Below, piece after piece: positions 855 to 31,546 of a stretch of DNA of 34,805 nucleotides (positions are counted from its first letter, which is position 1; every line of letters starts with the position of its first letter). The position numbers and the translations under genes are program-made. The notes below the pieces were generated by a model. That model saw only the letters and a program-made list of their open reading frames with translations, was not told the origin of the DNA and did no database searches. This DNA is from Chromera velia (taxonomy: Eukaryota; Sar; Chromeraceae), in the NCBI GenBank assembly GCA_018398765.1, contig JAHBMJ010005131.1, positions 22,501 to 57,305 of the forward strand, in the 5' to 3' direction.

Positions 855-1480
855 ATGTTGGGCTATGTTTTTATTTCTTCCAGCTCTGTCGCCAGGTTCT
901 GTTAGGCTTAGGGTCTCTTGGGCTGTATTAGGCCTGTTAGGCGGTGCTCAACAGTACAAATGGCCCAACAGCAGCCCAACATCACTTTAAAGTGCATAAC
1001 AAACATTGTAGAGCCTTTTAGACCAACTAAAAAAACATGCAGTAAAAAAAAAACAAAATTAAAGCTAAACGTTGCTTCAATATGAGCTTTATAGTCTTTA
1101 TGAAACGTAAAAAATGGTTGTTTGAAAATGAACCACATTTTTTAGAGGTTAAAGGTCTTAACACCGCCCCTCACTTTCAAACAACGATTTTATACGTTCT
1201 ATAAAGACTCTGAGTATAAAGTTCATATTAAAGCAACATTTAGCTTTAATTTTGGTTGTCTTGATTGCGTGTTTTTTAGTTGGTCTAAAAAGCTCTACAA
1301 TGTCTGTTATATACTTTAAAGTGATGTTGGGCTACTGTTAGGCTATTTGTACTGTTGGCCCAGTGTTGGGCACCGCTCAACAGGCCCAACACAGCCCAAT
1401 GCCCAACAAATTTAAACCTGGCGACATGACATCGTTCAACTTTGAGACACCACAATGATACCACAATGTAGCCCAACATA
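855..1480. mobile_element. Foldback / MITE-like element with long inverted arms
   Basis: Two arms of roughly 270 bases are imperfect inverted copies of each other. The left arm runs from about 887 to 1137 and the right from about 1165 to 1426. Both inner ends begin with the 12-mer TGTCGCCAGGTT read inward (887-898, and its complement at 1415-1426). The match may extend outward to an ATGTTGGGCTA motif at 855-865 and its complement at 1469-1479. The arms share a CAACATCACTTTAAAGT block and GGGCC/TTGGGCT-rich ends. There is no transposase ORF, so it would be non-autonomous. I could not identify a clear target-site duplication. Confidence 0.6.
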
Positions 1481-1489
1481 TTAATGACC

Positions 1490-3499: not shown

Positions 3500-4204
3500 T
3501 CAAACAACTTTCTTCAACGTGATAAGGTAGTACAAGGTCGTCCTGGAAGGAATGTCCCCGATGGAATACCGAGGATAGGTGAAGGCGTCGAGTGCTACTA
3601 TTTCCCTTGTCTCTCCGACCGTCATTTTCAACAAATTTGCTTCAAGTGCCTTATTCACTTCTTTCACCCCCAACTGAACCTCGAGGGGTTGCTTTAGCGA
3701 ACTCGTAGAGAAAACTAAAGTTCCGTTGAAATCATCGCGCCAGACGTCGCAGTCAATTTGAACAATATCCAATTTATCCACCTTCTCATCTGACCCCTCC
3801 TGTACCACCCTGTACTGTAACCCTGGCTCCATCATAGTATACCCAGGAATCTCTTTCACCTCATAGGGCAGCTTGATTATTGGTCCTTCCTGCTTCTTTT
3901 TCTTCGGTAGGGGCACTGCATTTAGGACCTTTGAGAGAGGACTCTCATCCTCAGCCGACTGGGCCTGAGCCGTTTGAGCTCCCCAGAAAAGGGCAGGCAT
4001 CAAGAGAGCTGGACGCAATAACTTCAAACTGATGTGCCGTCTCCGAGATTCATCGTGTCTCCCGTCTCCTTCTGAATTCAAAGAGACCAAGCGCCGCTGA
4101 GCAGAACCACCACTTCGGAAACCAATCGGTTTGCTCAGAAAGCCTTGAGCACTTGCAAATAAACAGAAAAATACCGCCAACCCCAAGGATCCCCCTTTTC
4201 GCAT
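3500..4204 (-). CDS. FKBP-like protein with tripartite thylakoid-lumen targeting signal
   Basis: Single-exon gene. I prefer the ATG at 4204 (234 aa) because it places the basic and hydrophobic signal peptide at the N-terminus; an in-frame ATG at 4243 would add 13 residues. Residues 1-21 form a signal peptide ending ASAQG before F22, the small-residue/Phe junction seen in proteins imported into red-lineage complex plastids. A Ser/Arg-rich transit-like stretch follows to about residue 53. Then come RRR (54-56), a hydrophobic run (about 58-79) and AQA at 79-81, resembling a twin-arginine-like lumen signal. Residues about 125-234 match the FKBP peptidyl-prolyl isomerase fold (GLQY...VVQEGS, PLEVQLG, KMTVGE, TLYYLITL). 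Canonical active-site residues look degenerate: the usual VIxGWE is VNKALE here. It may therefore be a lumenal chaperone or assembly factor, not an active isomerase. Confidence 0.82.
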   Translation of the reverse strand: MRKGGSLGLAVFFCLFASAQGFLSKPIGFRSGGSAQRRLVSLNSEGDGRHDESRRRHISLKLLRPALLMPALFWGAQTAQAQSAEDESPLSKVLNAVPLPKKKKQEGPIIKLPYEVKEIPGYTMMEPGLQYRVVQEGSDEKVDKLDIVQIDCDVWRDDFNGTLVFSTSSLKQPLEVQLGVKEVNKALEANLLKMTVGETREIVALDAFTYPRYSIGDIPSRTTLYYLITLKKVV

Positions 4205-4724
4205 GACGACAGTCGCTCCTTCGGGCGGGACGTCCGACCTCATTTGCGTTCCTTTCAGCTGGCGAGTTTCTCAAAGGCGAAGATCGGATTCAAACTACTT
4301 CCACTTGACCTTACCACGGTGGACACCAGAGAGCGCGGACTGCCCGAGATTTCAGATCTACAAGAAGTTCTGAGAGAGGCTCAGACTCATGAAGTGGCAA
4401 AAAGTCATGCACTAGCTCTGGTCCGATCATTCGGACCCGTCTTCGTGAAGGGCCCCGGAAAGTGCGCGCGAACCATGCATCCAAGGGGGATCTCATCTAT
4501 TCTCATCTATTCTCATCTTCTTGCATGAGATCGAACGAAGATGAACGGAGCTCAATGAGGCTCACTCCTCACTTCCTCGCTGACCTTTCACTCTTCAATC
4601 ACTTTGGTTCTCTTATTTCGTAGGTTGACAAGGCTTTTACACGGTGGTCTGGTCTCCTGTACGGGTCCTGCCCTCGGATGACTCTCTTCCTTTGAATTTT
4701 ACATTCCTTCTCTCATTGAATCAC
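4205..4724. promoter_or_regulatory. Divergent intergenic region, FKBP-like / NOL10
   Basis: About 520 bases separate the divergent starts of the FKBP-like gene (minus) and NOL10 (plus), so both promoters should lie here. A tandem 10-mer TCTCATCTAT occurs at about 4494-4519 (two copies plus a partial third). I see no convincing TATA box. Confidence 0.45.
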
Positions 4725-7700
4725 ATGCTGAAGAGTCTGAATGTCAACGGGGTGAAGGTGTACAACCTTTCTGCAGGGAAGACACTCCCCCAATTCCTCG
4801 ACGACGCGCAGAAAAATTCAAAATCCCTGAAGAAAAATGAAGACTTCAGACGACGCATCGAGCTCATTCAACACTTTGACTTCCCGATCGCTTCCCAAAA
4901 AGTTGCCGTCTCCGAGAATCAGCAGTTCATTGCAGCTGTCGGGATCTACCCCCCCGAGATCCGCATGTATGAAACCGCCACTCTTGGAATGAAATTCAGT
5001 CGTCGGTTGGATGCAGAGGTCGTTGATTTTCTTTTTCTTTCGGATGACTACCGAAAACTCGTTTTCCTGCTCGGAGACAGAACTTTAGAGTTCCACGCTC
5101 AAGGGGGGAGGCACCACAGGATACGAATTCCCAAAATGGGACGTGCGCTTGATTACCACCCAGAGACTGCTGAGCTGTTGGCGGTAGGGAGTTCAAATGA
5201 GATCTATAGAATCGATCTAGAACAGGGGACGTACAGCTCACCTTTGCTGTCAGCAACAGAGGGGTTGAATTTTGTGAAGGTCCACCCGTCTCTTCCCATT
5301 GCCACCGTGGGAGGAGACGGGGGGATTGTGGAGGGATGGGATCTCCGCGCCCCCCGTGCCGTCTCGAATCTGTCCCTAGATCCTGAAACTGCCAGAAGTG
5401 CTGGAGGGGAGCCTGGAGGGGGCTATGCAGCCACCTGTGCTGATTGGTCTCCTGATGGTTTGCACATTGCCGTGGGGGACTCGGAGGGAGTTGTTCGGGT
5501 TTTTGACTTACGGTCCTCTAAAGCGCTGTGCACACGGGATCATCGAAATGGGCTGCCTATCAAAAGCGTCCAGTGCATGCAAAGGGAAGCGTTGACGCTT
5601 GGAGGGGGAGGGGGGAAGAATGATGACGTAGACGACTTTGGCTTAGACATGCAGGGAGAGGGGGCAGGTGCCCATTTGCTGGTTGCCTCATTGGATGAGC
5701 GTGCGGTGAAGATTTGGTCCTGTGAAGGGTTGAGGAGTTCAGGGTCGATGTCGTCCTTTGAGTCGTCTGGAAGGGGGATGGGAGGCATGGAGGGGGGGAC
5801 GCGCATGGTGGCATCGGTGGAGACTGGCAGCGTCGCTAATCAGGTTGGTCCAGTCAGTGCGCGCATCGTCAAGGCCTTTTCTCCCCTTCTCCTTTCCTGA
5901 CCAACCAACTTCGTCTTTTTATTGGATTCTAGCATATGGCTGGAAACATTGTAATGAGATTGATGGGTTTATCTTTCGTTCATGCTTACTTATCTATGGT
6001 GAGGGACTGAGGCGTATGTCGTGCGGTTGAGACGAGACGTGTGTGGAAGAAACCTTGAAGAGGAAGCGAATGGAAGAAATTGCGCAGATTTCCAACCGAT
6101 CTGACTTTGTTTTTTTTTCGTGAAGCAGAACGCGAGCTTCTTCTCTTCCCGGATGTTGTCGCAATGGACCTTCTCCGCCCTTGTTTGACAGTCGATCTTT
6201 CGCCTCCATGCGTATGCACTGCCTGCTTGTTTGGTTTTCTTCCGCCTCTATGGAAAGAGGGAGAGAGAGAGAGAGAGACTTGATTCGGTTCGTATTTGCA
6301 GGCGTGCGTGTTTCCAGACAGTGGGTTGTTGATGATTGCCCAAGACTCCCCTCGCATAGGTCTCTTCTTCATTCCTGCTCTCGGGATGGCTCCACGGTGG
6401 TCGGTCGGGCTGTCTGATTCTGGTGATCGATGCTTTTTTTTTGTGACTCTTTCTTTCGCTTCCATTCTGTCCTCCTGCGGGTTTGTCTGCCTGTTGTCTG
6501 GATGCTGATTTTGAAGTGACCATGCACCCTTTGCAGTGCCGTGCTGCAGCCTCCCCAATCTCTCCATTCTCTCTGTCTGGTTGTGAATTGTTGGGAGTTT
6601 GTAGCATGTGTGTATGTGAATCCGCGTGTCTTTGTCTCTCTACGTCTAACGCATTGTCCGTGAGTGAATATGTCCTTTGTTTAAATCTCTTTCTCTCAGG
6701 TGCGCTTACCTAGAGGGTCTCATTGAGGAACTGGAAGAGGCCCCCGCTACCTCCGTGTTTGACGACTACCAATTTGTGACGAGGGCACAATTGCGGGAAC
6801 TGGGGGCAGAGCATCTGGTTGGTTTGTTTGTTTGTTTCTGAGGCTTTCTTTGTGTCTTTCTCTGTCTCTCTTTCTGTCTCTGTCGCTGTCTGGCTGTCTT
6901 TGTTTGTCTCTCATTCTCTCTGTCTGGTCTTTTTGAACGAACTTTGTAGGTTGGCCTTTTGTCAGCATACGGAAGGCAGGTGGAAGGGGCGCAGACAATG
7001 AAGGGAGAATGGCATCTGGCGCGTCTCTCATTCTGAAGGAGACGCTTGAGTGGTACGGGAAGGAAGGAAGGAAAGAAGAGAACAGGTAACTGAACAGAGG
7101 TAGACGGCGTCTGCCTGTCTGTCTGTCTGTCTGTCTATCTGTCTGTCTGTAAACCCACCCGAACGGGAGAAAGAAATGCAAAGAGACGATCAAAGCAAGA
7201 ACAGAAGCAGCAGCAATTCCCCCACCTCCTCCCGCCGCCCCCGCCCCCGCCCCCCCTCTTCCCTCTTCATCGGCCTCCTCATCCCCTGCAGATCCCCCTC
7301 CACAGGCTCCCCCTCCTTCGTCGTCCCTTCACGCCTCCTCTTCCTCCTCCTCCTTCTCCTCCTCAGCAATCCCAGCAGTAAACGCAGAACCTACAGCCCA
7401 CCCCCCAGCCCACCCTCCAGCCGTTTCGGTATCTTCATCTCCTTCAGCCATTTCGTTTGCTTCATCTTCTTCGGAACCCCCTCCTCCCCCCCTCCCGCCC
7501 GCCCCCCCGCAACAACCCCCTTGGAGAAGATCGTCACCAGGAAAGTCAAGAAGATTGCACAGAATAGATGAGAACAGTTCCAGTTCCAGTGCAGCCGCCC
7601 TTGCCGAACCCGTTCCAGCTCCCGCCCCCATCCCGGTCTCTACAGACCAACAACATCAAGACCCACACTCCCAAGAAGGGATGGAGGGGGAGCTCCCATC

Positions 7701-9963
7701 CCCCATCACACCTGGATCCGCCCCTTCCCTTTCACCCCACAGCGAGCGCGCAAACAATGGGTCCACGTATGACTCACCGTCAGAGCAGGAGTCCTGAGGA
7801 GAGAGAAGAGGTTTTAGAGAAGGTTCAAGCAACTGAGCACCGTCGCTCCTTTGGTATGGGACTTTGGAGAGTTTCGTTACCGCCGAAAGAGTCCTCCCGC
7901 AAGATACGAAGACACAACATCAGAAGAAATCCCCCTCCGCAGGGACGCCCCCCCACCCCCCCACCTCTGTCTAAAGAACATGACGGTGCCGGTCCCCACG
8001 TGCAGTTTTCTTTTTTCGTTTTGTTGTCATTTTTAATTTTTGTTGGTTTTTCTTGCCTTGTTTTCTTTTCTTCTCTTTCTTGTCTTGAGTGGAAGCAGCA
8101 GAGGAGTAGCGTGTGAAACCAGTGATCACGTGAAAGTCTGTCGGGAGGTGGAGAGGCAAGGGGCGCTTAACTCTCACCTTTCGGGCCCCCTGCCCACTTT
8201 GTCTGAGTTGTCGTGATGTTCCTTTGTCTTTGTTGCTTTCTTTCTTTTTGTCTATTGTGTCCATGAAGAAAAGAAGGGAGAAGAAGAAACATATAGTCTG
8301 TCTGTGGTGTTCATGAAGAAAAAGAGGGAGAAGAAGAAGAAACACATAGTCTGTCTGTCTATCTGTCTATCTGTCTGTCTGCCTGCCTGCAGGTGGGGAC
8401 AGGGATGCTGCGTGCGTACATGCACGGGTTCTTCATGGACTCCCGACTCTACAGGTGGGAGTGTGGGGGGGTGGGAGGGTGCATTTCTTTCTTTGTTTTC
8501 TCTTAATTCTCTGTTGTGTGGGGTGACGGTGCGTTGTGTCCCCACGCACGTGTGTTTGTGCGCTTTGCGTTGGTGGTTACGAGCATGCATGAGCTACTGC
8601 GTCCGTGGGCTTGCGTGGTCGGCTTCGGCCTGGTCCCGCCATCATGTTTCGTTGAGCGTTGGGCTTCGAAGAGCAGGGAAGGGGAGGAAGAGGTGAGGTT
8701 GTTTGTTCTGCCAGCAGGTGCCTCTGAGGTGTTTCCGCGAGGCTTGAGCTAGAATGCCTCTTCGAGTGGACTTTGGTTTCGCTTGAATGGTGTCCTGCGG
8801 GGTCTTTCGAGGAGTCATGCTGCCTGAAGAATGAGGATTGATTTCAAGAAAAGAATTTCTTGATTGTTGTTCTGCTGCAGGTCGCTCCGGGAGGTAGCAA
8901 CTCCTTTTGCAATCGAGGAGATGCGAAAACGGAGAGTTCAGGTCAGTGAGGGGATAGAGTTCGGGGATCTTTTCGCAGTGGATTGATCGATTGATGTTTA
9001 TGTATGTATGTATGTATGTATGTATGCATGTGTGTGTGTATGTGTGTGTGTGTGTGTATTTCTGGCATCCTTTCGTTGTTTGTTTGCTTATTTTCTCCTC
9101 AATGGCTGCCCGGTCTCCACTTCTTCGTGTAGAAGCTTCTTGTCATTCGTTTTTTTTGCATTCTTGTTTTCTCTCTCTTTCTCTCTTTTCCCCTCTCACT
9201 TGTTGGCTGCCGCCTTCTACCCTTCTCGTAACAGAGGGCTCGTCTGCGGCTCTCCCTGTGCAAAAGCGTGTGGATGCTCCGGGGGCTTCATGAGCGTGAT
9301 GATGATGCATGCGGATTCTGGTGCATTCTGCTGTTGCAGGAGCGGATGGATGCTTCGAGGAAGATGCGCATAGAGGCGTCAAAGCGCCCAGGCGGTGTGA
9401 ACTCTGCACTTGAGGAGAGCCTGAACAAGGCACTGAATGAGGGGAAAGAGGAGGGAGCGTCGCAGAAACGGAAGAAGGCGGCCGAGCAGGCAGAGGCGAT
9501 TCTGTCAGATGACCGTTTTGGTCGTCTGTTTTCGAATCCAGATTTCCAAATTGAGGAAGTGGATGGCCCGAGTCGGTCTCCCTTTCCCTCGGCAGTTTCG
9601 CTTTCTTCTTCTAAGGCTGGGGGGGGAGGAGAGGATGAAGAGGATGATGAGGACGGACCCGACGCTGTCATGCGCACAGACGCGGATATGCTGGGTGAGT
9701 CTGACGAGGACGAGGAGGCCGGTGGAAGTCGGGGTCATCCGAATGGGAAGATGAAGAGACAGAGAAGGTCGGAAGAGGAGGAAGAGTCAGGAGATGAGGG
9801 GGACGATGAAGCTTTTCGTCTTTTGGCGGAGGGGGGGAGTGGATTAGCTGCTGGGCTGGTGGCGGGAGAGCGAGGGAGGGATAGAGAGAAAAGCGGAGGG
9901 GTCGAGAAAGGGAGGGGTGGGAGGGGTGGACGAGGGGGCAGCGGGAGGGGGAAACGGAAATAA
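4725..9963 (+). CDS. NOL10: NOL10 / Enp2 nucleolar WD40 protein (ribosome biogenesis)
   Basis: Six exons resolved by homology and GT-AG sites: 4725-5843, 6302-6399, 6700-6817, 8393-8454, 8881-8941 and 9340-9963. Phases all match and give 693 aa; human NOL10 is about 690. In yeast the family (Enp2) acts in the nucleolus in early 40S/SSU-processome assembly. The start is MLKSLNVNGVKVYNLS, matching the family N-terminus. The WD40 propeller spans about 1-420 (RRRIELIQ, SDDYRKLVFL, FDLRSSKALC, HRNGLPIKSV). The conserved stretches FDDYQFVT and LRAYMHGFFMD lie in exons 3 and 4. The NUC153-type motif DDRFGRLFSNPDFQIEE lies at about 543-559. An acidic region (about 570-660) is followed by a Gly/Arg-rich RGG-like tail (about 672-693), common in nucleolar proteins. 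Intron 3 (6818-8392) is unusually long and contains another reading frame. Confidence 0.95.
7009..7797 (+). CDS. Possible nested or cassette two-exon ORF in NOL10 intron 3, Pro/Ser/Ala-rich
   Basis: Two open segments join in phase: 7009-7085 (ATG at 7009, donor AG|GTAACT) and 7170-7797 (acceptor GGGAG|A after a CTGT-repeat pyrimidine tract, TGA at 7795). Together they give 234 aa. The N-terminus MASGASLILKETLEWYGKEG is followed by a basic stretch, then a long Pro/Ser/Ala-rich disordered region. In that region Ser, Pro and Ala codons vary freely at third positions (TCT/TCA/TCG/TCC, CCT/CCC/CCA), which argues for protein-level constraint and not a simple repeat. The first segment is also open upstream to an acceptor at 6948-6949, so these could instead be cassette exons of NOL10. 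A further open, coding-looking stretch (PLVWDFGEFRYRR) at about 7820-7990 may belong with it. Function unknown. Confidence 0.35.
7105..7150 (+). repeat. (CTGT)n microsatellite, NOL10 intron 3
   Basis: Imperfect CTGT/CTAT tetranucleotide run. It sits directly upstream of the candidate acceptor at 7168-7169. Confidence 0.85.
8348..8392 (+). repeat. (CTGT)n microsatellite forming the NOL10 exon 4 polypyrimidine tract
   Basis: A CTGT/CTAT run passes into GCCTGCCTGCAG and ends exactly at the exon 4 acceptor (AG 8391-8392). The repeat is therefore the pyrimidine tract of this splice site. Confidence 0.85.
8995..9060 (+). repeat. (GTAT)n / (GT)n microsatellite, NOL10 intron 5
   Basis: A run of TATG tetranucleotides passes into alternating TG within intron 5. 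Confidence 0.85.
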
Positions 9964-10861
9964 TTGATTCATGCTACTTCGACTCGGAACAGTTGCGGAG
10001 AAAGTGGCACTCTTCCAAATCATCAGACTTCAAGGTTGCCAGTGTTGAAAGTAAGTAACCATTTTTTCCCTATAAGAACTATTCATTCATGAGGAATTAA
10101 GAGAACGATTTTCAAATATTTTTCACAAATTTTAATTAATATTAAGACTTCATCTCTAGTCTCCGAGTCTAGAGCGATCTGCGCTGATCTTTTGCTAGAT
10201 CTTTTAACACTCATAGCTCTGACAGTGCATGCTTATAGGAAAGTGCAAGTCGACTCGGATGTATGGGCCAGACAGCGCGCAACAGTAATGAACTAGTGAT
10301 CGAATTAACTGCGGGGTAACTCAAAAACTACCTCTCATTTGCTATAGCCCATTTAAAATAGATTTTATCATATTCTTAGTGTTATTCTATCCATACATGA
10401 TACTTGTAGATAATACTGCATGTTTCTTTGTTTTTATCCGTCTTTCTAGCAGTCTTTAGAAAGACTACTAAATCGAATAAGATTAAATAAAATAGGACTA
10501 AGTAACTTTGTAAGTCTGTGGAGACTTGACTCGATTCGTCACTCGAAGTCTAGCTTAAAGTTTCGAACGATAATGAGATAAATATTAATATATGTTGCTA
10601 TGTTTTTATATGGGAGACTCTAGTTTACCATTAGGTTTGACACAATACGAACTCAACTTAATCAAATCTAATCACTTGGGATCCTAAAAAATATTGCATA
10701 TATGAATTACAGTATAATATATGTATGTAAACATCTAAATTTTCCTTCAAAGTTTGCACGGATCCTTTGCTCGCTTCTCGGAGTCTAAAATAAGTGAATA
10801 TACAAAGCTATAAGTACACGCACTATCGAACGTACGAAGTGGACGCATATGCAGTACATCA
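9964..10861. other. AT-rich intergenic region
   Basis: No gene seen. It runs from the NOL10 stop to the start of the repeated 3' flank of the CBM20 gene. Stops are dense in all frames and no RNA gene is evident. Confidence 0.55.
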
Positions 10862-11469
10862 CGGTGTAAGACGAGCCGGTCAAAGGACAGTTCAAGCACA
10901 GTTGAAGAGAGTTGAGGCATACAAGAGGGAAAAAGGATACACAAGCAAACAGACACGCTTCTCCACGAACAGCCACACGCAGAAACACACAGAACTTGAA
11001 GAAAAAATGACGGAAAACCTGTACAGACCCAGAAGGAAAGAGCACGAGGCATCTTGTCCTCTTGCATCGGCTGATGGACCAAAGGGAAGACGAAGACGGA
11101 TAAAGAGACGGAGGCGGGGCAGATCCATTAAAAAAACGAAGAAGAACGATAGACGAAAAGAACGAATCGGGTTGCATGCTCTCTTCACTGCACGCACAGA
11201 CGAACGCTTTCCCCTCACGTACCTGTCCGTCTTGTCTACCAGACAAGCGATCGCAGTCGCACACAAGAGCAGAATGTGCACACAAATCTTTTATGAGAGA
11301 AAGAAGAAAAAGAAACAGTGAGAGGAGAAAGACAAAGACAAGAAATCGGGCACAAATGGAAGGAACGAGGGAAGCGAAGACATGCTCAGAAAAATGTCAG
11401 AAAGACACCCAGGCAGCCACTCACAGACAGACACACAGAGGATGCGAAGGAAGAGAGGCAGCAAATCGA
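10862..11469 (-). repeat. 3' flank of CBM20-repeat gene 1, duplicated in inverted orientation at 30537-31130
   Basis: Read on the minus strand, this roughly 600-base non-coding flank matches the plus strand at 30537-31130 almost end to end with small indels. Shared blocks include CTCATAAAAGATTTGTGTGC, GCGATCGCTTGTCTGGTAGA and CTGTGCTTGAACTGTCCTTT. Similarity stops abruptly near 10862, where this copy enters AT-rich DNA and the other copy enters a repeat-gene fragment. Confidence 0.8.
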
Positions 11470-13896
11470 TCAAGGAGGCAGAGAAGAGACCTGCTTGCAC
11501 TCATGGCAGTATCGACGCTCCCTTCGATGAACACAGAAGGCCCCCCCTCCGCACTCCTTGCAAAAGTAGCGCTGCCGGCCGTGCTCACAGATTCCCTGTC
11601 CTCCGCACTCTTTGCACCGAGAGCGCTTGCGACCGTGCTCACAGATGCCCTTCCCTCCGCACTCCTTGCATTTAGAGCGAATGCGGCTGTGCTCAAAAAT
11701 ACTCCCCCCTCCACAATCTTTGCACTGAGTGCGCCTGCGACCGTGCTCACAGATGCCCTTCCCCCCGCACTCCTTGCACCTGTGTCGCTCCCGACCGTGC
11801 AGACAGATGCCCTTCCCTCCGCACTCCTTGCACTGAGAGCGCCTGCGACCATGCTCACAGATGCTCTTTCCCCCGCACTCTTTGCACGTAGAGCGCCTGC
11901 GACCGTGCTGACAGATGTCCTTCCCTCCGCACTCCTTGCACTGAGAGCGAATGCGACCGTGCTCACAGATGCTCTTCCCCCCGCACTCCTTGCACTGACA
12001 CCGCTCCCTGCCGTGCTCACAGATGCTCTTCCCTCCGCAGTCCTTGCACCTGTGTCGCTGCCGGCCGTGCTCGCAAATACCCTTTCCTCCACACTCCTTG
12101 CATGTGGAGCGTACTTTTTCATGCGGACAGAGGATATTTCCGTGTCGGTCCCTCTTGACCTCTCCTGTGTGCGCTCTCTTCTTTCCCACTCTTCCCACAC
12201 CAATCCCCCCAGTGCTATTGACTCTACGTGCAGGCTGCTGCTGGACGTCCCTCCTGGAGGTGACCGTCACGTCGTCTCTGTTGTCTGTGTGACGGTGGGT
12301 ATGGGGACATTCGGGTCCCTCTGCGGGCCCTGCGGGTTCTCTCAACTCACCCAATGATCCCTCCCCTTCAAATGGCTCCCTTTCCATTCCCCCCTCTTCA
12401 CGAAATGATCCGCAGACTGCAGCCTCACGATGACACACGACTTCGTGATTCTGGATCTTGACGCGGTCAAAGGAGAGACGCTGAAGAGAGGAATCGTGCT
12501 GAGGGACTGACGAAAGGCAAAATACCGCATCCACCCTCCCTGTCACCACCGCTTCCTCACCTCCCCTTCTGTCAGACTGAGATTTGGAGACGGCAACGGA
12601 AAGAGAAGAGAGACGGCGGCGCTTTGGACCCTCACACACGGTAGACGGACTCAAAAACGCTCCCTGTGTCTGCATCTCACACGATGACCGATTCTCCCCA
12701 ACTATCAGACAAGGACCACGCCTCCCCGTCAGACCTTTCACACTTTCTGCACTCTTCCCTCTCAACACCCCCACTCCTTCCCCCCTCATCCCCTCCCGCC
12801 TTTTCAGAGCTGCAGGTGCGAATCGAATTGTCTGATCAGAAATGTCATGGACCCTTTCCCCCCCCATCACATCAGATCCCCGCCTCTGCAGATGCACAGA
12901 TGCAAAGGTCTCATAATGACCCCAGGGAACAGACCCACCGTCGCTCTCAGCAGAGTCAGCAGACGCCATCAGAATGTGTGCCGTCTCAGAGGCAGTCACG
13001 ACTCCCACCCTTCCACCTGCTGCCTCACTGATCTCTCTCAAGGACTCCCTCCCACCGCCATCACCCTGCTGTCCCGATGCCCTGCTTCTGCGCTCTGCAA
13101 GCTCAGTTTCTGGTTGTATATCTGTCTCTCTTCCCTTCTCTCTTTCCTCCCCACCCACTCTCTCTGCCCAAGTGCCAGTCGAAGGAGCAGCAGAAAGGAC
13201 ATTCCCGGAAGCAGAAAGCGAGACATCACTGACTGTGAAGCCCCCCTCATGCGGACCTCCGAATTTCTCCCCTGCGATCGAACCCGCCTTCTCCCACTCA
13301 TTCTCTTTGTCAGTCTCGAACTTTGAGGAGACAGAAGGGGGCGTGTCCTGTTCAGGTTCGAGTTGCTGCTCCGCTAACACCATGTCTTCCAATCTCAACG
13401 GAGTCACCTGTGTATCTCCATCTCCCCAACGCCCACCAAACAACGCATACCCACCACGAACGACCTCCACCTCCCGCGGCCCACACCCCAAAGGCTCCCC
13501 CCACACGCACCAACAACAGTCCTGATTTCGACTGTGTGAAGGAGCTGCTGCTGAGATCGTTGAAATGACTGCAGATGAGGATTTGGGACCGTCTACCACC
13601 AATCTTCGGTCGTCAAACGTCATTGGTTGAGGAGACTCAGTGTCGGCACTTGGTGTGACAAGGGCAAACTGAAATCGGACTTCAGAGCCAGCACTGTGCC
13701 GTATCGGAAAGGACATCCACACGCCTGGGAAGGCAGGGTTCTTCACTCGGTGGAGGGTGATACCGCGACTCGCATCCCACCCTCCGAACTCAGAGCTGCT
13801 CCCGACAACCACCAGCGTCTGCCCCTCCCGAGGCTCCACACCGGAACCGGCAAAAAGCACAACGCCCGTCTCCGCCTCCATCACCCTGATAGTCAT
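11470..13896 (-). CDS. CBM20 starch-binding module + CxHx6CxxC repeat array protein (gene 1)
   Basis: Intact, apparently intronless ORF of 808 aa. Residues about 8-100 are a CBM20 carbohydrate-binding module: VLFAGSGV, then GQTLVVVGSSSEFGGWD with the conserved Trp, then GVWMSFPI and EVRFQFAL. CBM20 domains bind starch or glycogen-type glucans. Residues about 100-588 are a Ser/Gly/Glu-rich, probably disordered linker with a basic KRRR patch. From residue 589 there are 12 tandem 18-residue units of the form ICEHGRRRSQCKECGGKG, each with Cys-x-His-x6-Cys-x2-Cys. The first (LCPHEKVRSTC) and last (FCVHRRERRYCHEC) are divergent caps, and the tail is QVSSLPP. Unit 9 reads IFEHSR and has lost its first Cys. 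The spacing suggests one metal ion per unit, but this is inference. Its paralogue lies head to head at 15615. I know of similar Cys repeats in algal proteins but no established function. Confidence 0.85.
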   Translation of the reverse strand: MTIRVMEAETGVVLFAGSGVEPREGQTLVVVGSSSEFGGWDASRGITLHRVKNPAFPGVWMSFPIRHSAGSEVRFQFALVTPSADTESPQPMTFDDRRLVVDGPKSSSAVISTISAAAPSHSRNQDCCWCVWGEPLGCGPREVEVVRGGYALFGGRWGDGDTQVTPLRLEDMVLAEQQLEPEQDTPPSVSSKFETDKENEWEKAGSIAGEKFGGPHEGGFTVSDVSLSASGNVLSAAPSTGTWAERVGGEEREKGRETDIQPETELAERRSRASGQQGDGGGRESLREISEAAGGRVGVVTASETAHILMASADSAESDGGSVPWGHYETFASVHLQRRGSDVMGGERVHDISDQTIRFAPAALKRREGMRGEGVGVLRGKSAESVKGLTGRRGPCLIVGENRSSCEMQTQGAFLSPSTVCEGPKRRRLSSLSVAVSKSQSDRRGGEEAVVTGRVDAVFCLSSVPQHDSSLQRLSFDRVKIQNHEVVCHREAAVCGSFREEGGMEREPFEGEGSLGELREPAGPAEGPECPHTHRHTDNRDDVTVTSRRDVQQQPARRVNSTGGIGVGRVGKKRAHTGEVKRDRHGNILCPHEKVRSTCKECGGKGICEHGRQRHRCKDCGGKSICEHGRERCQCKECGGKSICEHGRIRSQCKECGGKDICQHGRRRSTCKECGGKSICEHGRRRSQCKECGGKGICLHGRERHRCKECGGKGICEHGRRRTQCKDCGGGSIFEHSRIRSKCKECGGKGICEHGRKRSRCKECGGQGICEHGRQRYFCKECGGGAFCVHRRERRYCHECKQVSSLPP
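11494..12132 (-). repeat. 54-bp tandem repeat array encoding 12 Cys/His units
   Basis: Eleven 54-base units (11539-12132) plus a 45-base terminal unit (11494-11538). Adjacent units are nearly identical at DNA level, which suggests homogenisation by unequal exchange or gene conversion. The unit length is a multiple of three, so copy number can change without breaking the frame. Confidence 0.92.
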
Positions 13897-15614
13897 ATGT
13901 CAAGTTGTCGGGTAACACAAACGTGAGCTCCCGAGTGACCTCTGCACGCACATCAAAAGCCAAACACCATGTGTGCTTCGACCTTGCCACAGCAAAGAGC
14001 CAATGTCACAACGCAGAGCTCGAGCAACAAAGTCAGTGCGGAAGTCTCTCTGGAAGTTCACCAAGTCTCACTGACTTGATTCTGTTCGATTTCGCAATAT
14101 TTGAGTGTGTCACGAGGGAGACACACAGGAGCTCAGAAAGCACCACTCCGAAAGGAGATGTGATCACGACCAACAGGCGCAGCGACGATTGGGAGACTCA
14201 ATTCCTTCGCCACTTGAGTGTCGCTTTGAATCCTTCGATGACTCTCTCCCTCAGTCTCTGATCAGCAGACGAGGAAGAGACCAAGGAACCCTTCAGGGTC
14301 TTGGTGTGCACAGCTGACGTGCGTTGATTCTCAGCTTGAAATCCGAGCGCAGCTCCACGTGTTTGAGGCAGGAAGAGCAAGCTGCGCCAGAGAGGCGAGT
14401 CTGAGGCTCTGAACTATAGGCAAGAAACTCTGCTCTTAATTTGACAACGACAGTCAGAATTAACTCCTGGCCTCCTGCTGAGAAAGCAAGTCTGAAAGCT
14501 GGCGACCCACTTCCTGTATATATAAGAGGGACAACTATACTCTTAGTAACGACCGGTGCATTGTGCAAAGTGTCAGACATTGAAGTTGATGAACTTTGAA
14601 GAAGGATCCACAGTGAGATTAATTCATTGAAGTGTCATGAAGTGTCAAGGTCAGAAATCCATCAGATGCATGCATGCAATGGCATCAGGAGGTCGCAGCT
14701 AGGAAGTCGCGTGCGAAATTTTCACTGCGAATCCTCGAGACGCGCGGTTATCGCGCGGTTGTGTTGTCAACTCTATATACGATTCAACCTTCGATCTTTT
14801 TGAATATATAGAGTCGATCTTCTGAATATATAAAAGGGTCAAAAGTGCTTTCTCATGTATGTACTGTTCCAGCGCTCTGATTTGACAGTGAGTGATCAGC
14901 GAGTGATTCTGACTGAGAGAGAGAGAGAGGGTGCACGACTCTGACTGCATGATGCTGGCAGAATTCAGATTGCTTCCAGTTAGAGAGCGACGAATCCGGG
15001 GTCCAGCGGCTCGATCGATGTATAGAGTGTTTGTCGCCCCTTTCTTTGTATCTGTGAACAGATCGATCCATCCGTCTGTGGACTCTATCAGCCTGTAGAT
15101 CGCGGCTCTGAGATCCACAACTCTTTTGTGTGACCCTTATTTTTTGTGTTGAAAGACAAACTAGCCTCTGTCCGCAACACACTCTCCTTCCTGTCTCTCT
15201 CCCCCACCTGGCCGAGGAAGTCGACAGCTGATCGATCGATCGATCTGACGGCAGGCTTGGAGGTGAGTCAATGTGAGTTCTCTCTGTCATGCAGCACTTC
15301 ATGGTCGCTTCTTACTTCTTGACAGGAGAGTGTTCAGACAGGCTTGTAGGTCTATCTTTCAGCTTTGACTCGTCTCGGCTTCGGGGATGGAGTGACACCG
15401 CCAGTGACACGTGGCCGCTTGTCTGAATGTGTCTGAATGTCTGTGCTATTGTTATTCGTGTTAAGACTGTGTGAAAATTGGTGCAGGTCTGTGCAGGTGA
15501 CCATCAAGCGAGCGCGAGAACAACAACGGGTGGAGCCAACTGCGATCCCTTTTCGATATTAGATCAGTTGTCGATTGAAGTTGAATCCGTCTATTCACCT
15601 TTATCGGGCTACTC
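13897..15614. promoter_or_regulatory. Divergent intergenic region between the two CBM20-repeat genes
   Basis: About 1.7 kb with no convincing ORF. TATA-like TATATAAAAGG lies at about 14826-14836 (plus orientation), and TATATAAGAGG at about 14518-14528. An imperfect inverted repeat spans about 14770-14813 (CTCTATATA...TATATAGAG). A (GATC)n run lies at about 15229-15246, just before a donor-like GAG|GTGAGT at about 15260, possibly in a 5' UTR exon of gene 2. A short minus-strand ORF (13790-13990) overlaps the gene 1 start in another frame and I do not accept it. Confidence 0.45.
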
Positions 15615-17773
15615 ATGTATATTGGCACAATGAAGGGGTTCATCGCCTTTGTTGCGCATTGCCCGGAGGTGCGAGAGAATTTTATTAATCAACGCGTTGT
15701 GGTGGTGGGAGAATGTGCTGAGCTGGGAGGGTGGGAATTGGGTGGTGCGTTGTCTCTCGCCCCTGCACCGTGTGGGCGTCCTTGGTGGGTGTCGAGTGAG
15801 GTGGAAGTGAATCTCCCAGAGTCCTCTAGGGGTGTCTCTGGAGATTTCGTGAATGGGATGGGGGTGGGGGGAGAGGGTGGGGGTGTGGGGGTGTCAGAAT
15901 TGAAGTTTCGACTGTTTGCGATTGCGAACGATGGTGAAGAGACTGAGGCTTCACATTCTGGCAACCTCATGTGTCTTGAGCCGCTGAGGGGGGAAGACTT
16001 CCGTATCGTTCGTTTCGTTAGTGGGCCACCTCTTTCTGACTGCTTTTCGGTCGGAGAGAGGGGTGTCAACACACTCCATGTCGGTGCAGAAGGGGGGAGA
16101 GATCATCAGAAGAGGGAGGTGGTTGGGATTTTGGTGGAATGGGGGGTCCCGGGGAGTGTGCAGCTCGCTCTCCTCCCTCTGCACACGAATGAGCAGACAG
16201 AGCACCCGCAAAGAGAGTCTGAGCGTCCTGGTTTGTCTGGCCCCCAGTCAGACATTGCATGTCCCCCTTTCTCAGAGGAGAGGGTACAAACATAAACCAG
16301 AATGTCAACAGAAACGACAGAAGACCATCAGAGCAAGTCAGGCATCCGAGTCTTCGTTTGTCCCCCTCCACCCGCTGGAGAGTCGAAAGCACCCGCTGTT
16401 CACAGGGGAAGAGAAGAGGAGGAAGTGTGTGTTGACCGTTCTGATTCAATGACAGTCTGCAACCGCCCGACCAAAGCCAAGTCTCTCGTTGACAACACAA
16501 TCCCCCGTTCGCGCCCTTCGAACTCCACCCACCTGTATTCACGTGATGACGGGTGTGGTCAGAAAGAAGAGAGGGAGGGGGTACACAGGTCATCGGTTTC
16601 CCTCAAGCGTCGTCGGTCAGAGAGTGCCCTCGCTCAGGTAGAGGCTGACGAGTGCGATGAGGTGTCTGGCTGTCCCGGTGAGATGGGTTGTGGGGGGAGG
16701 GGAATGGGAGGGGTTGCGTGCGGGAAGAGAAGCAGCGTCGGTTGACTGTTTCTCTTTCGGACTCCGCTCCTCTCTCTTCTGAGATGTGTAGAGGGAGGGG
16801 TGATCCGATCGCTGGGGGGAAAGGGGTTGTGCCTGAGAATGATCATCGAGGCGGGGGGGGAGGAGAGGTGAAGAGGAACCGCCATGGGCAGACTCTCTGC
16901 TTGCATGGACGGGTTCGCACCAGATGCAAGGAGTGCGGGGGGGGTTCTTTGTGTGAGCACGGTCGGCAGCGCTCTCGGTGCAAAGAGTGCGGAGGGAAGA
17001 GCATCTGTGAGCATGGTCGCAGGCGCTCTGAATGCAAAGAGTGCAGAGGAAAAAGCATCTGTGAACACGGTCGCAGGCGCTCTCAATGCAAAGACTGCGG
17101 AGGGAAGGGCATATGTGAGCACGGTCGCATTCGCTTTCAGTGCAAAGAGTGCGGGGGGAAGGGCATATGTGAGCACGGTCGCAGGCGCTCTGAATGCAAG
17201 GAGTGCGGAGGGAAGAGCGTATGTGAGCATGGCCGGCAGCGCAGCAAGTGCAAGGGGTGCGGAGGGAAGAGCATATGTGAGCACGGACGCAGGCGCTCTG
17301 AATGCAAAGAATCTGGAGGAAAAAGCATCTGTCAACACGATCGCAGGCGCTCTCAATGCAAAGAGTGCGGAGGGAAGGGCGTATGTGAGCACGGACGGCA
17401 GCGCTCTGAGTGCAAGGAGTGCGGAGGGAAGAGCATATGTGAGCACGGTCGCAAGCGCTCTGAGTGCAAGGAGTGCGGAGGGAAGAGTATTTGTGAGCAC
17501 GGTCGCATTCGCTCTCAGTGCAAGGATTGTGGAGGGGGGAGTATTTGTGAGCACGGCCGCATTCGCTCTAAATGCAAGGAGTGCGGAGGGGGGGGCATTT
17601 GCGAGCACGGCCGGCATCGCAGCAAGTGCAAGGAGTGCGGCGGGAAGAGTATTTGTGAACACGGAAAGCAGCGCTACTTCTGCAAGGAATGCGGAGGGGG
17701 GGCCTTCTGTGTTCATCGAAGGGACCGTCGATACTGCCAGGAGTGCAAGCAGGTCTCTTCGCTTCCTCCCTGA
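15615..17773 (+). CDS. CBM20 starch-binding module + CxHx6CxxC repeat array protein (gene 2)
   Basis: Paralogue of the gene at 11470, transcribed divergently. The likely start is the ATG at 15630 (MKGFIAFVAHCP); an in-frame ATG at 15615 adds five residues. The first 130 or so residues form CBM20: QRVVVVGECAELGGWE, RPWWVSSEVEV and LKFRLFAI. The C-terminal part, open from about 16682 to the stop at 17771, holds 16 tandem 18-residue Cys/His units and the same VSSLPP tail. The two parts are not in one frame. The first ends at TAA 16293-16295, the same frame stays open from there to 16745, and the array is in a different frame. An intron from a GTAC donor at 16284 to an acceptor at about 16731-16734 would keep phase, but its acceptor lacks a pyrimidine tract. 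A nonsense mutation plus a frameshift is the alternative. Unit 8 (CKESGG) has lost a Cys. Confidence 0.7.
16895..17749 (+). repeat. 54-bp tandem repeat array encoding 16 Cys/His units
   Basis: Fifteen 54-base units (16895-17704) plus a 45-base terminal unit (17705-17749). Units alternate among a few variants at the HGR-x-R positions (RRRS, QRS, IRS, KRS). Two units have lost a key Cys or nearby Gly (CKESGG, CKECRGKS). Openness in other frames and on the antisense strand is a by-product of the repeat. Confidence 0.92.
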
Positions 17774-18700
17774 TCGATTTGTTCCTTTCTCTTCTCGGCT
17801 GTTGTCATTCCTGCATGTGTTTGTCGACACCTTTCATCATCTCTCTGTGTCAATGAAGACTTCTGTCTGGTTGGTGAAGAGAGGGGAGGGGGCGGGAGGA
17901 AGGTGTGTGCTCACAGGGTAAGGAGATGCTTTGCGTTTCTGCGTGTGCGCGTGGGATGAGGCCTGTCTGAGATCTGGCAAACGGCACTCGTCTAACTTTC
18001 TTCTCTCGGCTGAGCTCACGTGCCTTGATTCGATCGGGGCCTTCCTTCTCTTTTGTTACTCTCCTTTGTGACCCGTTCCTTGTTTCCGAGCCCTCCCCTC
18101 TCTCCCCGTTTTCTTTCTGGGTCCTCTACATTGAATGCATGAATCTTTCTTGGCAAGTGGTTCCTCAAGAAGAAGATCGGGGAGAAGCGAGGCGGAATCG
18201 AGTCGTCGTTGATTGTCTCTCAGATGTCGTGCTGGTACTAACAGTCGGAGTCAAAGGGAGATACTTCGCTTGGTACTTTGCTGCCCCTGTTTCTTTTGCT
18301 TTCCGCGTTTGCAGCTTTGTGTTTTTGTTCTGTTTGTTTCTTTTTCTTTGTCTGTCTGTTTGTGTCTGTGGACCTTTGCCTTGGTTGTCTGTCTCTGAGC
18401 CTGCTGGTCGGAAGACAGAAAAGGGAGCTGCATGGTGAAACTGTCAGAAGAGGCACTGGCAAGCATCAGTTCAGGCAGAATTGAAGAAAGAAGGGAGAAG
18501 GGCAAAACAAGAGGATTTCTGCATTGTTCCTTTGCAGGGTACTTCAATTCACAGCCGGTTGGTGAGGAAAGCAGCCGACTGTTTAAAATGTCCACCCAAA
18601 TGTTTTCTTCGAATTCATACTAGCTTTCTGCCGGCCTGCGACTTTGTGTGCCTGGTTTTTTACACACTCACGACAGTAAAGAGCAACTGATTGACAAATA
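17774..18700 (+). other. 3' flank of gene 2, no supported gene
   Basis: Only the first bases after the stop (TGATCGATTTG) resemble the flank of gene 1; the rest differs from the 10862-11469 flank. Open stretches such as 18025-18438 are dominated by T-rich, Phe/Leu/Val/Cys-coding sequence and have no motif I recognise. Confidence 0.45.
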
Positions 18701-20720
18701 TAGCAAACTTGATTTCACCTAGGATCTGACTGTCATCGCTGAACTTTTCTTTTAGTGGACTGCGGGGCAACCTGGAACTCTGTCCTGTCCTTTGCCGCAC
18801 TGGCCTAGGCACTGGCACTCTGTTTTATTTTATTTTGTTTGTCCATTCATTCATTATTCTTTCTAAGTTTTTTTTTTTTTAATATATTGAACTAGTATAT
18901 AGTACTAGTACATGGATCCAGCAATATCAAATCCTATAGCTTTAAAGACCACTAAATGCTAGTAAGTGGCTGTATAATAGCCTGTATTAATAGTATTTGC
19001 CAACTATATTAAATTGGAGGGGGGCTATTTGAAATATGTTCCTCAATTAAACTATCTATATAGTAGTATATAGTACGTCTTGTGGAGTCCTACCCTGTGG
19101 CGCCGCCCTCTGGACCTTCGCATACGCTGTATCTGAATGAGCCCGCATGCCGACGCCATGCTCCACCGCAATGCGTATACGTATGCAGTCTGCCTGTACG
19201 TGTCGCACTCGAAGCTCTACGGATGCATACAAGTCTACGTTTGGCCTCTTAAGCAACATGTTGCCTGAGTAACATGCTTCCTATGGCAGGTTTGAGTCGA
19301 AGTCCGCCGAACTCCTTGAATTGAATCTCTAATTGAACCTATAGAGTCGGATTCATTTGGAGTCGGAAGAAGTCTGAAGATAAAGCTCTATAGAACCTCT
19401 TAGAGGCAAAGTAGGATTGAGACCTCGTTTATATACGTGGACCTGTAAGATGTTGCTTGAGTTAGTGTTGCTCACGTTCCTTCTCTAGATCTTCTCTAAG
19501 GTTCTTGTCCTCGCTTTATCTTCTGTCTAGACGCCATAAGACGGCTAGACAGGAGGGACAAAGCAGTCTGGCATTTCGTTCTCTGACGGTTTTCAATAAT
19601 ATTCAAGAGAAAACAGTTTAAAAACTTACAACGTTATACAACGTTATCATCAGTATCATACGTCATCACCATCGGCCTCGCTATAAATAGGCCGCATTTA
19701 TATAGGCGTCTGGCGTTCGGTGGCAACGCACGAAGCAGTTTCGACTGCCAGTTCGGTTGTTGACAACAACAGTTCACGTTGATTTATCCGAGCATTTATC
19801 TTTAATTCAACCAAGATATTTTTTTTTCATCTTTTTTTCAAACTCTTCTACTTCCGGAGGAGGATGATGCTTGCAGCATTATTACATAATTACAATATTT
19901 AAGTTATATATAATTTAACTTTAATATTTGTAATTCAGCCGCTATATATTATGAATTCATCCTATAAATGTATGATTGAAATCAAGATAATTTATATGCA
20001 ATCGTTTTTAACTAGCATAAGACCTCTATAAGACAAAACGGCGACAGTGCTCTAGGGTACCACTAATCAATAATCACTAATTCTTAATCGTTAGTATTCA
20101 TCCATTCCTAAATATATTCCAAAGTTCAAGTTACTCACGCTGTTCAAGTTACAGTCTAGGTTACAGTCCAACTTTGAATCTTTATAATTCCATGCAGTCA
20201 CATTTTTCACAGACTCACAGTCTGTATATAATTTTCAAATTTCAGGGTGATTGGACATACTGGCCTAGATGCTGGCCCATCTGTTGCCCGGTAATATACC
20301 TCTTTTCTTTGTTTAAACTCTCAGATAGCACTTTTGTCCCGCATCAATCCTCCCCCAGACCCAGCCGGCGACTTTTACCGGCTGTGTATGATACAAATGC
20401 TGGGTGATGTAGACACAGGTGTAAAAGCCCCCTGGCAGAGACTCAAAGGAAGTCAGCGAGGCATGCACAGGAGTTGTGAAGGGAGACTGCAGCTGCAGAT
20501 CGCGCCGCACTCCATAGAGATGAATTGAATTTGACGCAAAAGAATAGACACAAACACAAACACACAGAGAGCCAGACGCAACTGTGTAAAAGGTGAAGCA
20601 GGGAGAATAGAGCGATAGGAAGCAAGCACAAAGAAAAACAACAGAAAAAAAGGCCCGCTGACGGTCTCTTCTCGAAGCAAGAGAAAACACGAAAACGCGG
20701 ATCGGCAGGTACCGACCCTT
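18701..20720. other. AT-rich intergenic region with a dispersed repeat
   Basis: No gene seen. Positions about 19637-19780 resemble about 31900-32020: both contain CATCGGCC, then ATAGGCGTCT and CAACGCACGA in the same order. A GC-richer patch at about 19080-19260 has a short minus-strand ORF that I do not accept. Confidence 0.5.
19637..19780 (+). repeat. Dispersed repeat, copy 1
   Basis: Shares ordered blocks (CCATCGGCC, ATAGGCGTCT, CAACGCACGA, AGTTCGGTT) with about 31900-32020, with indels between them. Probably an old non-coding interspersed element. Confidence 0.55.
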
Positions 20721-29567: not shown

Positions 29568-30233
29568 CTACGAATAAGGCAGCGGCAACAAAAGGCACTC
29601 AGGTGCGTGGCCTTTCCCTGTCCACCTGCAGTAGAAACCAGAGTGCTCCGGCGCACCTGTGTCCTGCGGATCTGCAGGAACCACGAAAACGACCTTATTC
29701 AGTCGTGATGAGCGTGACGGTCCAGCTAACTTGGCGATGTCCTTGAAGTCCTTGAGTTTGTACTGCTTATGAGGCCCTATGGCCATCTGCAGTCCGAAAG
29801 GGAAGGAAACAGCGTCGAGGACAGGGAACGTTCTGATGGAGGGGCGGCCGTAGTCGCCCTCTCCAAGACCTTCAAGATCTTGTTTCGAACGTGAAACGGA
29901 CTTCACCGTCGTACCGAACTGGACATCCTGGGTCTCTGCTGGTGAACGCGTGCTCCGGATCCCGTCCTCCTCGCTCGCATTCTTCATCTTCTCTGCTCGA
30001 AATGTCTCCCCGCTGATCAGCTTTTCGTGAGCAAACCACTCGAAGAGGTTTCCTCGCAACCCTCCAGCCATGTCTCCATGTCCACGGAGATCCGTCAGAA
30101 GCTTTGCTACGTCTATCATCGCCTTATCCCCCCAGCCCTTCAGCACCGCGTCCCTGGCCTGAAGGGAGCAGAAAGCCCACGATTTGAAGGTGAAATCCTC
30201 TTTTGCTTCCGGACGGACGGAACGGAGCTGCAT
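29568..30233 (-). pseudogene. Crinkler (CRN)-like nuclease-fold domain fragment
   Basis: ORF of 221 aa from an ATG at 30233. Motifs resemble the C-terminal restriction-endonuclease-like domain of CRN (Crinkler-RHS) proteins in spacing and order: LRGNLFEWFAHEKL, then SGETFRAEKM, then a YGRP...FPVLDAV segment, FGLQMAIG, and KVVFVVPAD. In CRNs the FVVP motif is followed by more sequence. Here the frame ends soon after, unless a donor at the CAG|GTGCGC site is used. No N-terminal CRN domain or kinase/GTPase partner is seen. Its 5' end abuts, in opposite orientation, a fragment of the Cys-repeat gene at 30252, so the upstream part is missing. The call rests on remembered motif patterns and should be confirmed by profile search. 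Confidence 0.45.
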
Positions 30234-30251
30234 GATCTCGCACGGAAGAGC

Positions 30252-30536
30252 ATCTGTGAGCACGGTCGCCGGCGCTCTCAATGCAAAGAGTGCTGGGGGA
30301 AGAGCATCTGTGAGCACGGTCGCAGGCGCTCTGACTGCAAAGAGTGCGGAGGGAAGAGGATCTGTGAGCACGGTCGCATTCGCTCTCAGTGCAAGGAGTG
30401 CGGAGGGAAGAGTATTTGTGAGCACGGCCGGCAGCAATACAGGTGCAAGGAGTGCGGAGGGGGGGGCATCTGTGTTCACCGAAAGGACCGTCGATACTGC
30501 CATGAGTGCAAGCAGGTCTCTTCTCTTCCCTCTTGA
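30252..30536 (+). pseudogene. C-terminal fragment of a CxHx6CxxC repeat gene (fragment A)
   Basis: Five intact repeat units (30252-30512), then the tail VSSLPS and a stop. The frame is open upstream only by chance across the antisense of the CRN-like ORF. There is no CBM20 module or linker. The last unit (CVHRKDRRYCHEC) is closest to gene 1, and its 3' flank is a copy of the gene 1 flank. It is therefore a truncated duplicate of the gene 1 3' end. The first unit has CKECWGK in place of CKECGGK. Confidence 0.8.
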
Positions 30537-31130
30537 TTGATTTGCTGCCTCTCCTTCTCATCCTCTGTGTGTCTGTCTGTGAGTGCCTGCCTGTGTGTCT
30601 GTCTTTCTGAAACTTTTCTCTCCTCCGGCAGCTTTCCTCGTTCGTTCACTTTGTTCTTCTTTCTCTCATAAAAGATTTGTGTGCACCTTTTGCTCTTCTG
30701 GATGTGATGTTCTGCATGCGAATGCGATCGCTTGTCTGGTAGACAAAACGGACAGGTGAGGGGAAAGTGTTCGTCTGTGCGTGCAGTGAAGAGAACATGC
30801 AAGACGGGCTCCTCTTTTCCGATTCGTTCTTTTTATCGATCGGTCTTCTGTATTTTTTTGATGGATCAGCCCCATTTCCGTCTCTTTATCCGTCTTCATC
30901 TTTCCTTTTATCGGAGTTGGTCGATCAGCCGATGCAAGGGGAGGAGATGCTTGGTGCTCTTTCCTGTCTGGGTCTGTACAGGTTTTCCTTCATGTTTTCT
31001 TCTGTGTGTCTCTGCGTCTGGCTGTTCGTGGAGAAGCGTGTTTGTTTGTGTATCTTTTTTTCCTCTTGTATGCTTCATCTATCTTCAACTGTGCTTGAAC
31101 TGTCCTTTGATTGGCTCGCCTTACACAGTG
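30537..31130 (+). repeat. Inverted copy of the gene 1 3' flank
   Basis: Aligns over its whole length to the complement of 10862-11469. Similarity ends near 31130, at TTACACAG, exactly where fragment B of the repeat gene begins. Confidence 0.8.
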
Positions 31131-31546
31131 CAAACAATGTGGAGGGAAGGGCATTTGAGCACGGCCGCTTGCGACATCAGTGCAAGGCCTGTGGAGGAAA
31201 CGGCATCTGTGAGCACGGCAGGCAGCGAAGCAAGTGCAAGGAATGTGGAAGGAAGGGTATTTGTTAGCGCAGACGGGTTTGCACCAGATGCGAGGAGTGC
31301 GGAGGGGGGAGTATCTGTGAGCGTGTATGGTCGCATTCGCTCTCAGTGCAGGAGTGCAGGGGTAAGAGCATATGTGAGCACGGTCGCATTCGCAGTCAGT
31401 GCAAGGAATGCGGAGGGGCGGCCATCTGCGAGCACGGCAGACAACGCTCCCATTGCAAGGAATGTGGAGGAAAGGGCATCTGTGTTCACCAAAAGAATCG
31501 CCGATTCTGTCAGGAGTGCAAGCTGCTTTCCTCTCTGCCTCCTTAA
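31131..31546 (+). pseudogene. Degenerate CxHx6CxxC repeat gene fragment (fragment B)
   Basis: About seven repeat units with broken reading frames. A two-base loss lies at about 31153 (CATTTGAGCAC where CATTTGTGAGCAC is expected). A TAG follows at about 31264-31266, and further frame changes occur near 31320-31350. The last three or so units are in frame (31346-31546: CEHGRIRSQCKECGG, then CEHGRQRSHCKECGG, then CVHQKNRRFCQEC) and end LLSSLPP. One internal unit resembles unit 1 of gene 2 (GFAP/RTRCxEC context). It is downstream of fragment A and in the same orientation. Confidence 0.8.

Follow-up and report, generated by a model that had tools for sequence, protein, structure and literature searches.

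A dispersed family of divergently arranged genes with CBM20-type domains and Cys/His repeat arrays in Chromera velia

The window, by which we mean the whole stretch of 34,805 nucleotides analysed here, carries two genes in divergent orientation that belong to a large dispersed family in the genome of Chromera velia, and in this family a CBM20-type N-terminal domain is combined, through a long linker, with an array of 18-residue CxHx6CxxC units. Our preferred reading, which we hold tentatively, is that the pairs form a diversifying family of intracellular, probably nuclear proteins that would bind nucleic acid and carry a glucan-binding domain. The host is photosynthetic, as 58 matches to the light-harvesting family in its genome indicate. 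In what follows, A and B denote the minus-strand and plus-strand gene types, C-numbers are contigs of the Chromera velia genome, which was searched as an assembly of 177.8 Mb in 4,040 contigs, and L-numbers are fetched loci, among which L039, L044, L045, and L047 are IMG/VR viral contigs. The features of the window are collected in Table 1.

Table 1. Positions of the gene pair, its parts, and related features within the window
Feature	Position	Strand	Basis or remark
Repeated unit of about 8 kb with both genes	10747..18752		blastn, 80.7% over 8,269 columns to L015 (C2353) 1159-8868
Open frame, 809 aa	11470-13899	-	Single uninterrupted frame
Gene A	11470..13896	-	Begins at 13896 or at 13881 (MEAET, the start seen elsewhere in the family)
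Gene A array, 12 units of 18 residues	11482..12129	-	Unit count in the translation
GPKRRRLSSLS, nuclear-localisation-like basic cluster in the A linker	12598..12630	-	Run of four basic residues
WGEPLGCGPREVEVV...GGRWG block, putative last CBM20 strands after the insert	13423..13515	-	Placed by eye
Gene A CBM20, N-terminal two thirds	13637..13881	-	Pfam PF00686, 28.2 bits against a cut-off of 23.3; frame residues 22-84
Intergenic stretch between the divergent genes	13897..15629		84-88% identical in five close copy pairs
CBM20-like N-terminal region of gene B	15630..16080	+	PF00686, 20.8 bits, under the cut-off of 23.3
In-frame TAA breaking gene B	16293..16295	+	Frame alignment with other copies
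SLKRRRSESALAQ, basic cluster in the B linker	16599..16637	+	Run of four basic residues in 7/11 B linkers elsewhere
Site of a 10-base deletion that shifts the frame of gene B	16683..16684	+	Relative to L010 and L026
Gene B array, 16 units of 18 residues	16898..17761	+	Stop codon ends at 17773
Remnant array pieces of an A-type 3' end	29946..31543	+	5 and 3 strict units in open frames

Copy number, pairing, and integrity of the genes

A 64-residue array query gave at least 214 matches in the host genome, which is a lower bound from the scoring of 150 of 1,506 candidates, and queries made from the N-termini of A and B gave 45 and 60 matches, respectively. The pairing count took 37 of the 45 A rows and 48 of the 60 B rows, with distant paralogues, second gene pieces, and cross-hits set aside. 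The initial annotation had described a head-to-head pair in the window, and this arrangement recurs in the family, since 32 of the 37 type-A matches lie head-to-head with a type-B match. The gap between the paired matched stretches measured 1,428-1,785 bases in 31 pairs and 2,876 bases in one. Four of the five unpaired A matches are no more than about 1.9 kb away from the end of their contig, the fifth being that of C2131, and 15 B rows have no A partner (second pieces not counted). Full-length matches to the B query were 65-98% identical throughout the genome, except for one at 61%. With this number of array matches and this frequency of pairing, the CBM20/array pattern exceeds chance. A published study reports that closely spaced genes (<1,000 bp) of Chromera are head-to-head above chance expectation (PMC4501334), so the divergent layout may in itself be less special.

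The 12 and 16 units counted in the initial annotation were recovered in our translations: 11 and 15 of them, respectively, are strict CxHx6CxxC units, and the single deviant unit has F at the first Cys in gene A and S for a Cys in gene B. The common SSLPP tail was likewise found in both genes. As for the proposed fusion of CBM20 and array within one protein, it holds for gene A, where a single 809-aa frame contains both parts, and other copies also keep CBM20 and array in one frame. It fails for gene B of the window, whose CBM20-like start and array are in different frames, separated by a TAA and a 10-base deletion. In alignment, the frames of L010, L026, L012, and L020 run straight across both sites, and L012 and L020, too, have bases at the deletion site (after 16683). 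Because the frames of four copies align through both sites, no intron is required, and by this alignment the window copy of the plus-strand gene is disrupted, barring an assembly error.

The same mixture is seen across the family. CBM20 and array are held together in nine of 17 A frames, and L026, among the other eight, runs into N; 11 of 15 B frames have at least one array unit in frame, although two of these 11 have merely one or two. Two further genes, A of L017 and B of L019, were not picked up by the patterns used to find the frames. Both genes are open, arrays included, at five loci (L009, L010, L014, L016, and L024). The family consists of intact, constrained members and many broken ones. 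A distant paralogue at L038:1261-3255 (C3079) has a CBM20 domain, eight units, the motif AKRRRRR, and then at least nine more units.

Both genes are contained in the repeated unit of about 8 kb. Other close matches of this size join L009 957-9382 with L013 and L009 1164-9160 with L016, and blastn of the window against the fetched stretches gave no match longer than the unit. A partial unit copy is present in the same window, as positions 30251-31083 match L015 2180-1284 at 78.6%, in the region of the remnant array pieces, which correspond to the 3' end of the A gene in L015. In close pairs, homology ends 0.7-1.1 kb past the array stops and the neighbours differ, and a stricter earlier comparison found few loci that share DNA beyond the coding parts. 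The unit may be viewed as a mobile or selfish element, with array proteins that bind the DNA of the element itself and a CBM20 domain that is incidental. The occurrence of units on many contigs with a constant divergent layout would agree with this explanation, as would the ends of homology and the differing neighbours in close pairs, the many broken copies, and the resemblance of the array to nuclease arms. Nevertheless, four units tested end-to-end had no terminal inverted repeats above shuffles, no common end sequence was seen among the units compared, and the A and B genes scanned had no integrase, transposase, or nuclease match. In addition, CBM20 is better kept than the intergenic DNA. 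We therefore consider a mobile element rather improbable.

Several other features were noted in the window outside the unit. A NOL10-like beta-propeller (4629-5897, plus strand, 148.7 bits) and a NUC153 match (9232-9960, plus strand, 22.1 bits against a cut-off of 20.5) are perhaps exons of one NOL10 gene. An FKBP domain (3503-4270, minus strand, 38.8 bits) has a leader that resembles, by eye, a signal peptide followed by a transit peptide, as for import into a complex plastid, and a tandem repeat of 125 bases is present in 2.6 copies with 96% match at 21896-22221.

The 18-residue unit and its relatives beside nuclease domains

None of the arrays scanned was matched above cut-off by a Pfam or NCBIfam model, and a comparison of the array with solved chains and PDB folds gave no convincing match (the array model had a pTM of 0.46). 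The window array matches PHROG family 37414, whose function is unassigned, with an E value of 2.8e-7. Foldseek against BFVD returned six viral proteins with E up to 0.001, two of which, from Pithovirus LCPAC304 and Pithovirus LCPAC404, bear the names DnaJ central domain protein and endonuclease, respectively. On the viral contigs, the array is followed by an HNH endonuclease match to phrog_3118 in L039 (E 4.3e-13), by phrog_3118 in L045 (E 1.9e-8), and by a phrog_3322 endonuclease in L047 (E 3.3e-29). L044 encodes two array proteins near each other (3857-4606 and 6138-6704) in which an endonuclease VII-like motif can be recognized by eye; no family match naming this motif was obtained for them.

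The same association is found in the host. Five loci with an array match and neither an A nor a B match were fetched, and about a dozen further contigs have such matches as well. C1055, C99, and C3610 are HNH genes in which the array is followed by GWHVDHIVP...NLQPMW; they match phrog_1035, endonuclease VII, with E values of 1e-8, 2.2e-8, and 2.7e-5, respectively, and Pfam gave no match for them. C571 is a B gene truncated by the contig end, and C3644 is an array alone in which no nuclease domain was found. C1171 is also an array alone, with no nuclease domain found by Pfam/NCBIfam-type profiles, so the array need not accompany nucleic acid. On C1917, array and HNH matches are close together on one strand. 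The HNH (WHVDH) domain itself was matched 124 times in the genome, frequently twice on one contig at a spacing of about 1.3 kb (for example C1055:8730-9065, C53:24537-26279, and C3256:78089-79948); so many HNH domains are unusual in a nuclear genome. At L054 (C1055), 23 strict units precede the HNH domain, and units of the RNYC and RSKC types mostly alternate there, which gives a higher-order period of 36 residues.

Since the repeat is fused to HNH/endonuclease VII-like domains both on viral contigs and in three host genes, we infer by analogy that the array would bind nucleic acid. The A and B frames scanned have no nuclease domain C-terminal to the array and end in SSLPP-type tails. The initial annotation had suggested that the array could load many metal ions or bind an anionic partner on a starch granule. 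An anionic partner still fits, but in view of the nuclease fusions, nucleic acid is more probable as the partner than metal loaded at a starch granule.

The variation between units is concentrated at three positions. In a set of 483 units, drawn from the window and from 19 loci, positions 6, 8, and 9 had amino-acid entropies of 2.95, 2.77, and 3.20 bits, and no other position exceeded 1.99 bits; only units keeping C, H, C, and C were counted, so the constancy of these ligands is by construction. In 26 viral units, the values at positions 6, 8, and 9 were 2.52, 2.54, and 2.89 bits, and positions 16 and 17 were equally variable (2.51 and 2.73 bits). L027, which overlaps the window, was excluded from the entropy set and from the dN/dS set for CBM20 and linkers. 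A constant scaffold with a few variable residues resembles the design of modular recognition families.

The arrays also diverge beyond the DNA around them. Five close pairs have CBM20 parts that are 90-96% identical and intergenic DNA that is 84-88% identical, and the flanks are 85-91% identical in three close pairs. Array identity is 69-87% (four close pairs, seven arrays) and falls below the intergenic value of its own pair in 7/7 cases, although mis-paired units inflate the array divergence. The linkers of four close pairs are 89-94% identical in six comparisons and 68% in one. When arrays were compared unit by unit, their ends were kept and their interiors were scrambled, most clearly in L009/L016. 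Four comparisons gave dN/dS values of 0.71, 0.83, 1.08, and 0.53 for positions 6, 8, and 9 taken together; for the remaining unit positions, the values were 0.09, 0.12, 0.07, and 0.11. The former set is compatible with relaxed constraint alone and is no proof of positive selection.

Such values bear on the explanation that this is a decaying multigene family, in which the arrays drift and the variable residues have no specific recognition. Decay would agree with the neutral-range dN/dS of positions 6, 8, and 9, with the linker dN/dS of about 0.7, with the broken gene B of the window, and with the survival of 9/17 A frames, another one running into N. However, the scaffold residues are tightly constrained (dN/dS 0.07-0.12), CBM20 has dN/dS values of 0.38 and 0.47, and the five loci named above have both genes open with their arrays. 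We regard decay as a quite unlikely account of the whole family.

The CBM20-type domain, the linkers, and the probable location

The claim that both N-termini are CBM20 domains stands for gene A and falls short for the window's gene B: at the Pfam CBM_20 cut-off of 23.3 bits, gene A passes (28.2), whereas B fails in the window (20.8), in L009 (20.7), and in L026 (19.5). The B gene of C3256 exceeds the PF00686 cut-off with 28.5 bits in the genome search. Nine A and eleven B frames were aligned. In the A frames, LGGW or LGEW is kept (FGGW in the window copy), as is VWMSFP. An insert follows, and then a WEP...R block, which in the window is WGEPLGCGPREVEVV...GGRWG; it is conserved across the nine frames and resembles WEP...NR of L029 and L033, which are stronger CBM20 proteins of this genome. 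The block was placed by eye, the alignment program having left it unplaced, and L038 is without its Trp. The dN/dS in CBM20 is 0.38 for A and 0.47 for B, with a median synonymous distance of about 0.40 in both, broken copies included.

Glucan site 1 presumably consists of two Trp and one Lys, with residue roles taken from glucoamylase. The first Trp is present in 9/9 A frames, and the second is kept, as judged by eye, in 8/9 A frames and replaced by Leu in 11/11 B frames; the Lys position has Gln in A and Arg in B. From these residues, starch binding by type A is plausible, and starch binding by type B is doubtful because its second Trp reads Leu in every frame.

The linkers are long, and basic clusters are frequent in them. 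Four basic residues in a row are present in 8/9 A linkers, where 0.58 was expected from shuffles, and in 7/11 B linkers, where 0.88 was expected. No leader sequence was seen by eye in the A and B proteins. The KRRR clusters together with this lack of a leader favour the nucleus over the granule, and the proteins are probably intracellular and nuclear.

These observations also weigh on the explanation that A and B are starch-granule proteins, whose CBM20 docks on cytosolic starch and whose array either stores metal or has an anionic partner, for example phosphorylated glucan. Gene A does exceed the CBM20 cut-off with its site-1 aromatics kept by eye, a unit has a net charge of about +2.4, and the CBM20 proteins SAGA1/SAGA2 are reported to organise starch in Chlamydomonas. 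Nevertheless, this type of array accompanies nucleases, the linkers contain basic clusters, and the second Trp of B is Leu throughout. Metal storage, for which the Cys/His ligands are the single argument, leaves the three hypervariable positions unexplained, and a starch synthase search gave just two weak exon matches. We regard the starch-granule explanation as unlikely, and we return to nucleic-acid-binding proteins with a glucan-binding domain as the preferred reading.

Proposed mode of action and comparison with known systems

According to the preferred reading, the CBM20-type domain would serve as a glucan sensor or tether, and the long, variable linker would carry a basic, nuclear-localisation-like cluster. 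Each 18-residue unit may coordinate a single metal ion, presumably zinc, with its Cys-x-His and Cys-x-x-Cys motifs, and the array would form a nucleic-acid-binding arm like those on some HNH/endonuclease VII-like enzymes. Residues 6, 8, and 9 of the unit would probably contact the target, unit turnover would alter the target preference, and CBM20 may localise or regulate the binding of nucleic acid. We also considered a further-reaching proposal, that this is a new recognition repertoire in which three variable residues per unit read nucleic acid approximately unit by unit, CBM20 couples binding to the carbohydrate store or anchors nucleic acid on glucan, and the array has a common origin with the arms by which HNH-type enzymes of viruses and algae bind DNA; we judge it quite improbable in this full form.

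If the array binds nucleic acid, the alga would have multiplied a short zinc module into a large and rapidly changing family that is joined to a glucan-binding domain. Gene control or genome defence could then be connected with storage carbohydrate, and designed recognition might make use of the short unit, which at 18 residues is about half a TALE repeat. Regardless of function, a repeat without Pfam or NCBIfam cover above cut-off in the proteins scanned recurs beside HNH/endonuclease VII-like domains in an alga as well as on viral contigs.

The open literature that we searched contained no description of a fusion of CBM20 with a CxHx6CxxC array. To our knowledge, none of glucoamylase, SAGA1/SAGA2, and laforin, the last of which we take to be a CBM20 protein, has such an array. 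Like the starch-binding domain of glucoamylase (1AC0), the N-terminal part of A is a CBM20 by Pfam, and it matches 1AC0 weakly (E 0.0089); the pair departs from these CBM20 proteins in an insert ahead of the final strands and in the Leu that replaces a site-1 Trp in B. RNF213, presumably a ubiquitin ligase with single zinc domains and no repeat array, is a partial parallel. It likewise reportedly combines CBM20 and zinc-binding modules in one intracellular protein. The HNH/endonuclease VII-like array enzymes (L039, L044, L045, and L047; C1055, C99, and C3610; Pithovirus LCPAC404) are built with the same unit of 18 residues (CxHx6CxxC), in which positions 6, 8, and 9 vary, but they carry a nuclease domain, whereas the A/B pair carries CBM20 and gave no nuclease match. 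KRAB zinc-finger proteins, TALEs, and PPR proteins combine a constant scaffold, a few variable residues per unit, unit turnover, and many dispersed copies. The array resembles them in placing a few hypervariable positions on a constant scaffold, and it differs in its unrelated unit and in the accessory CBM20, its contact with bases being putative.
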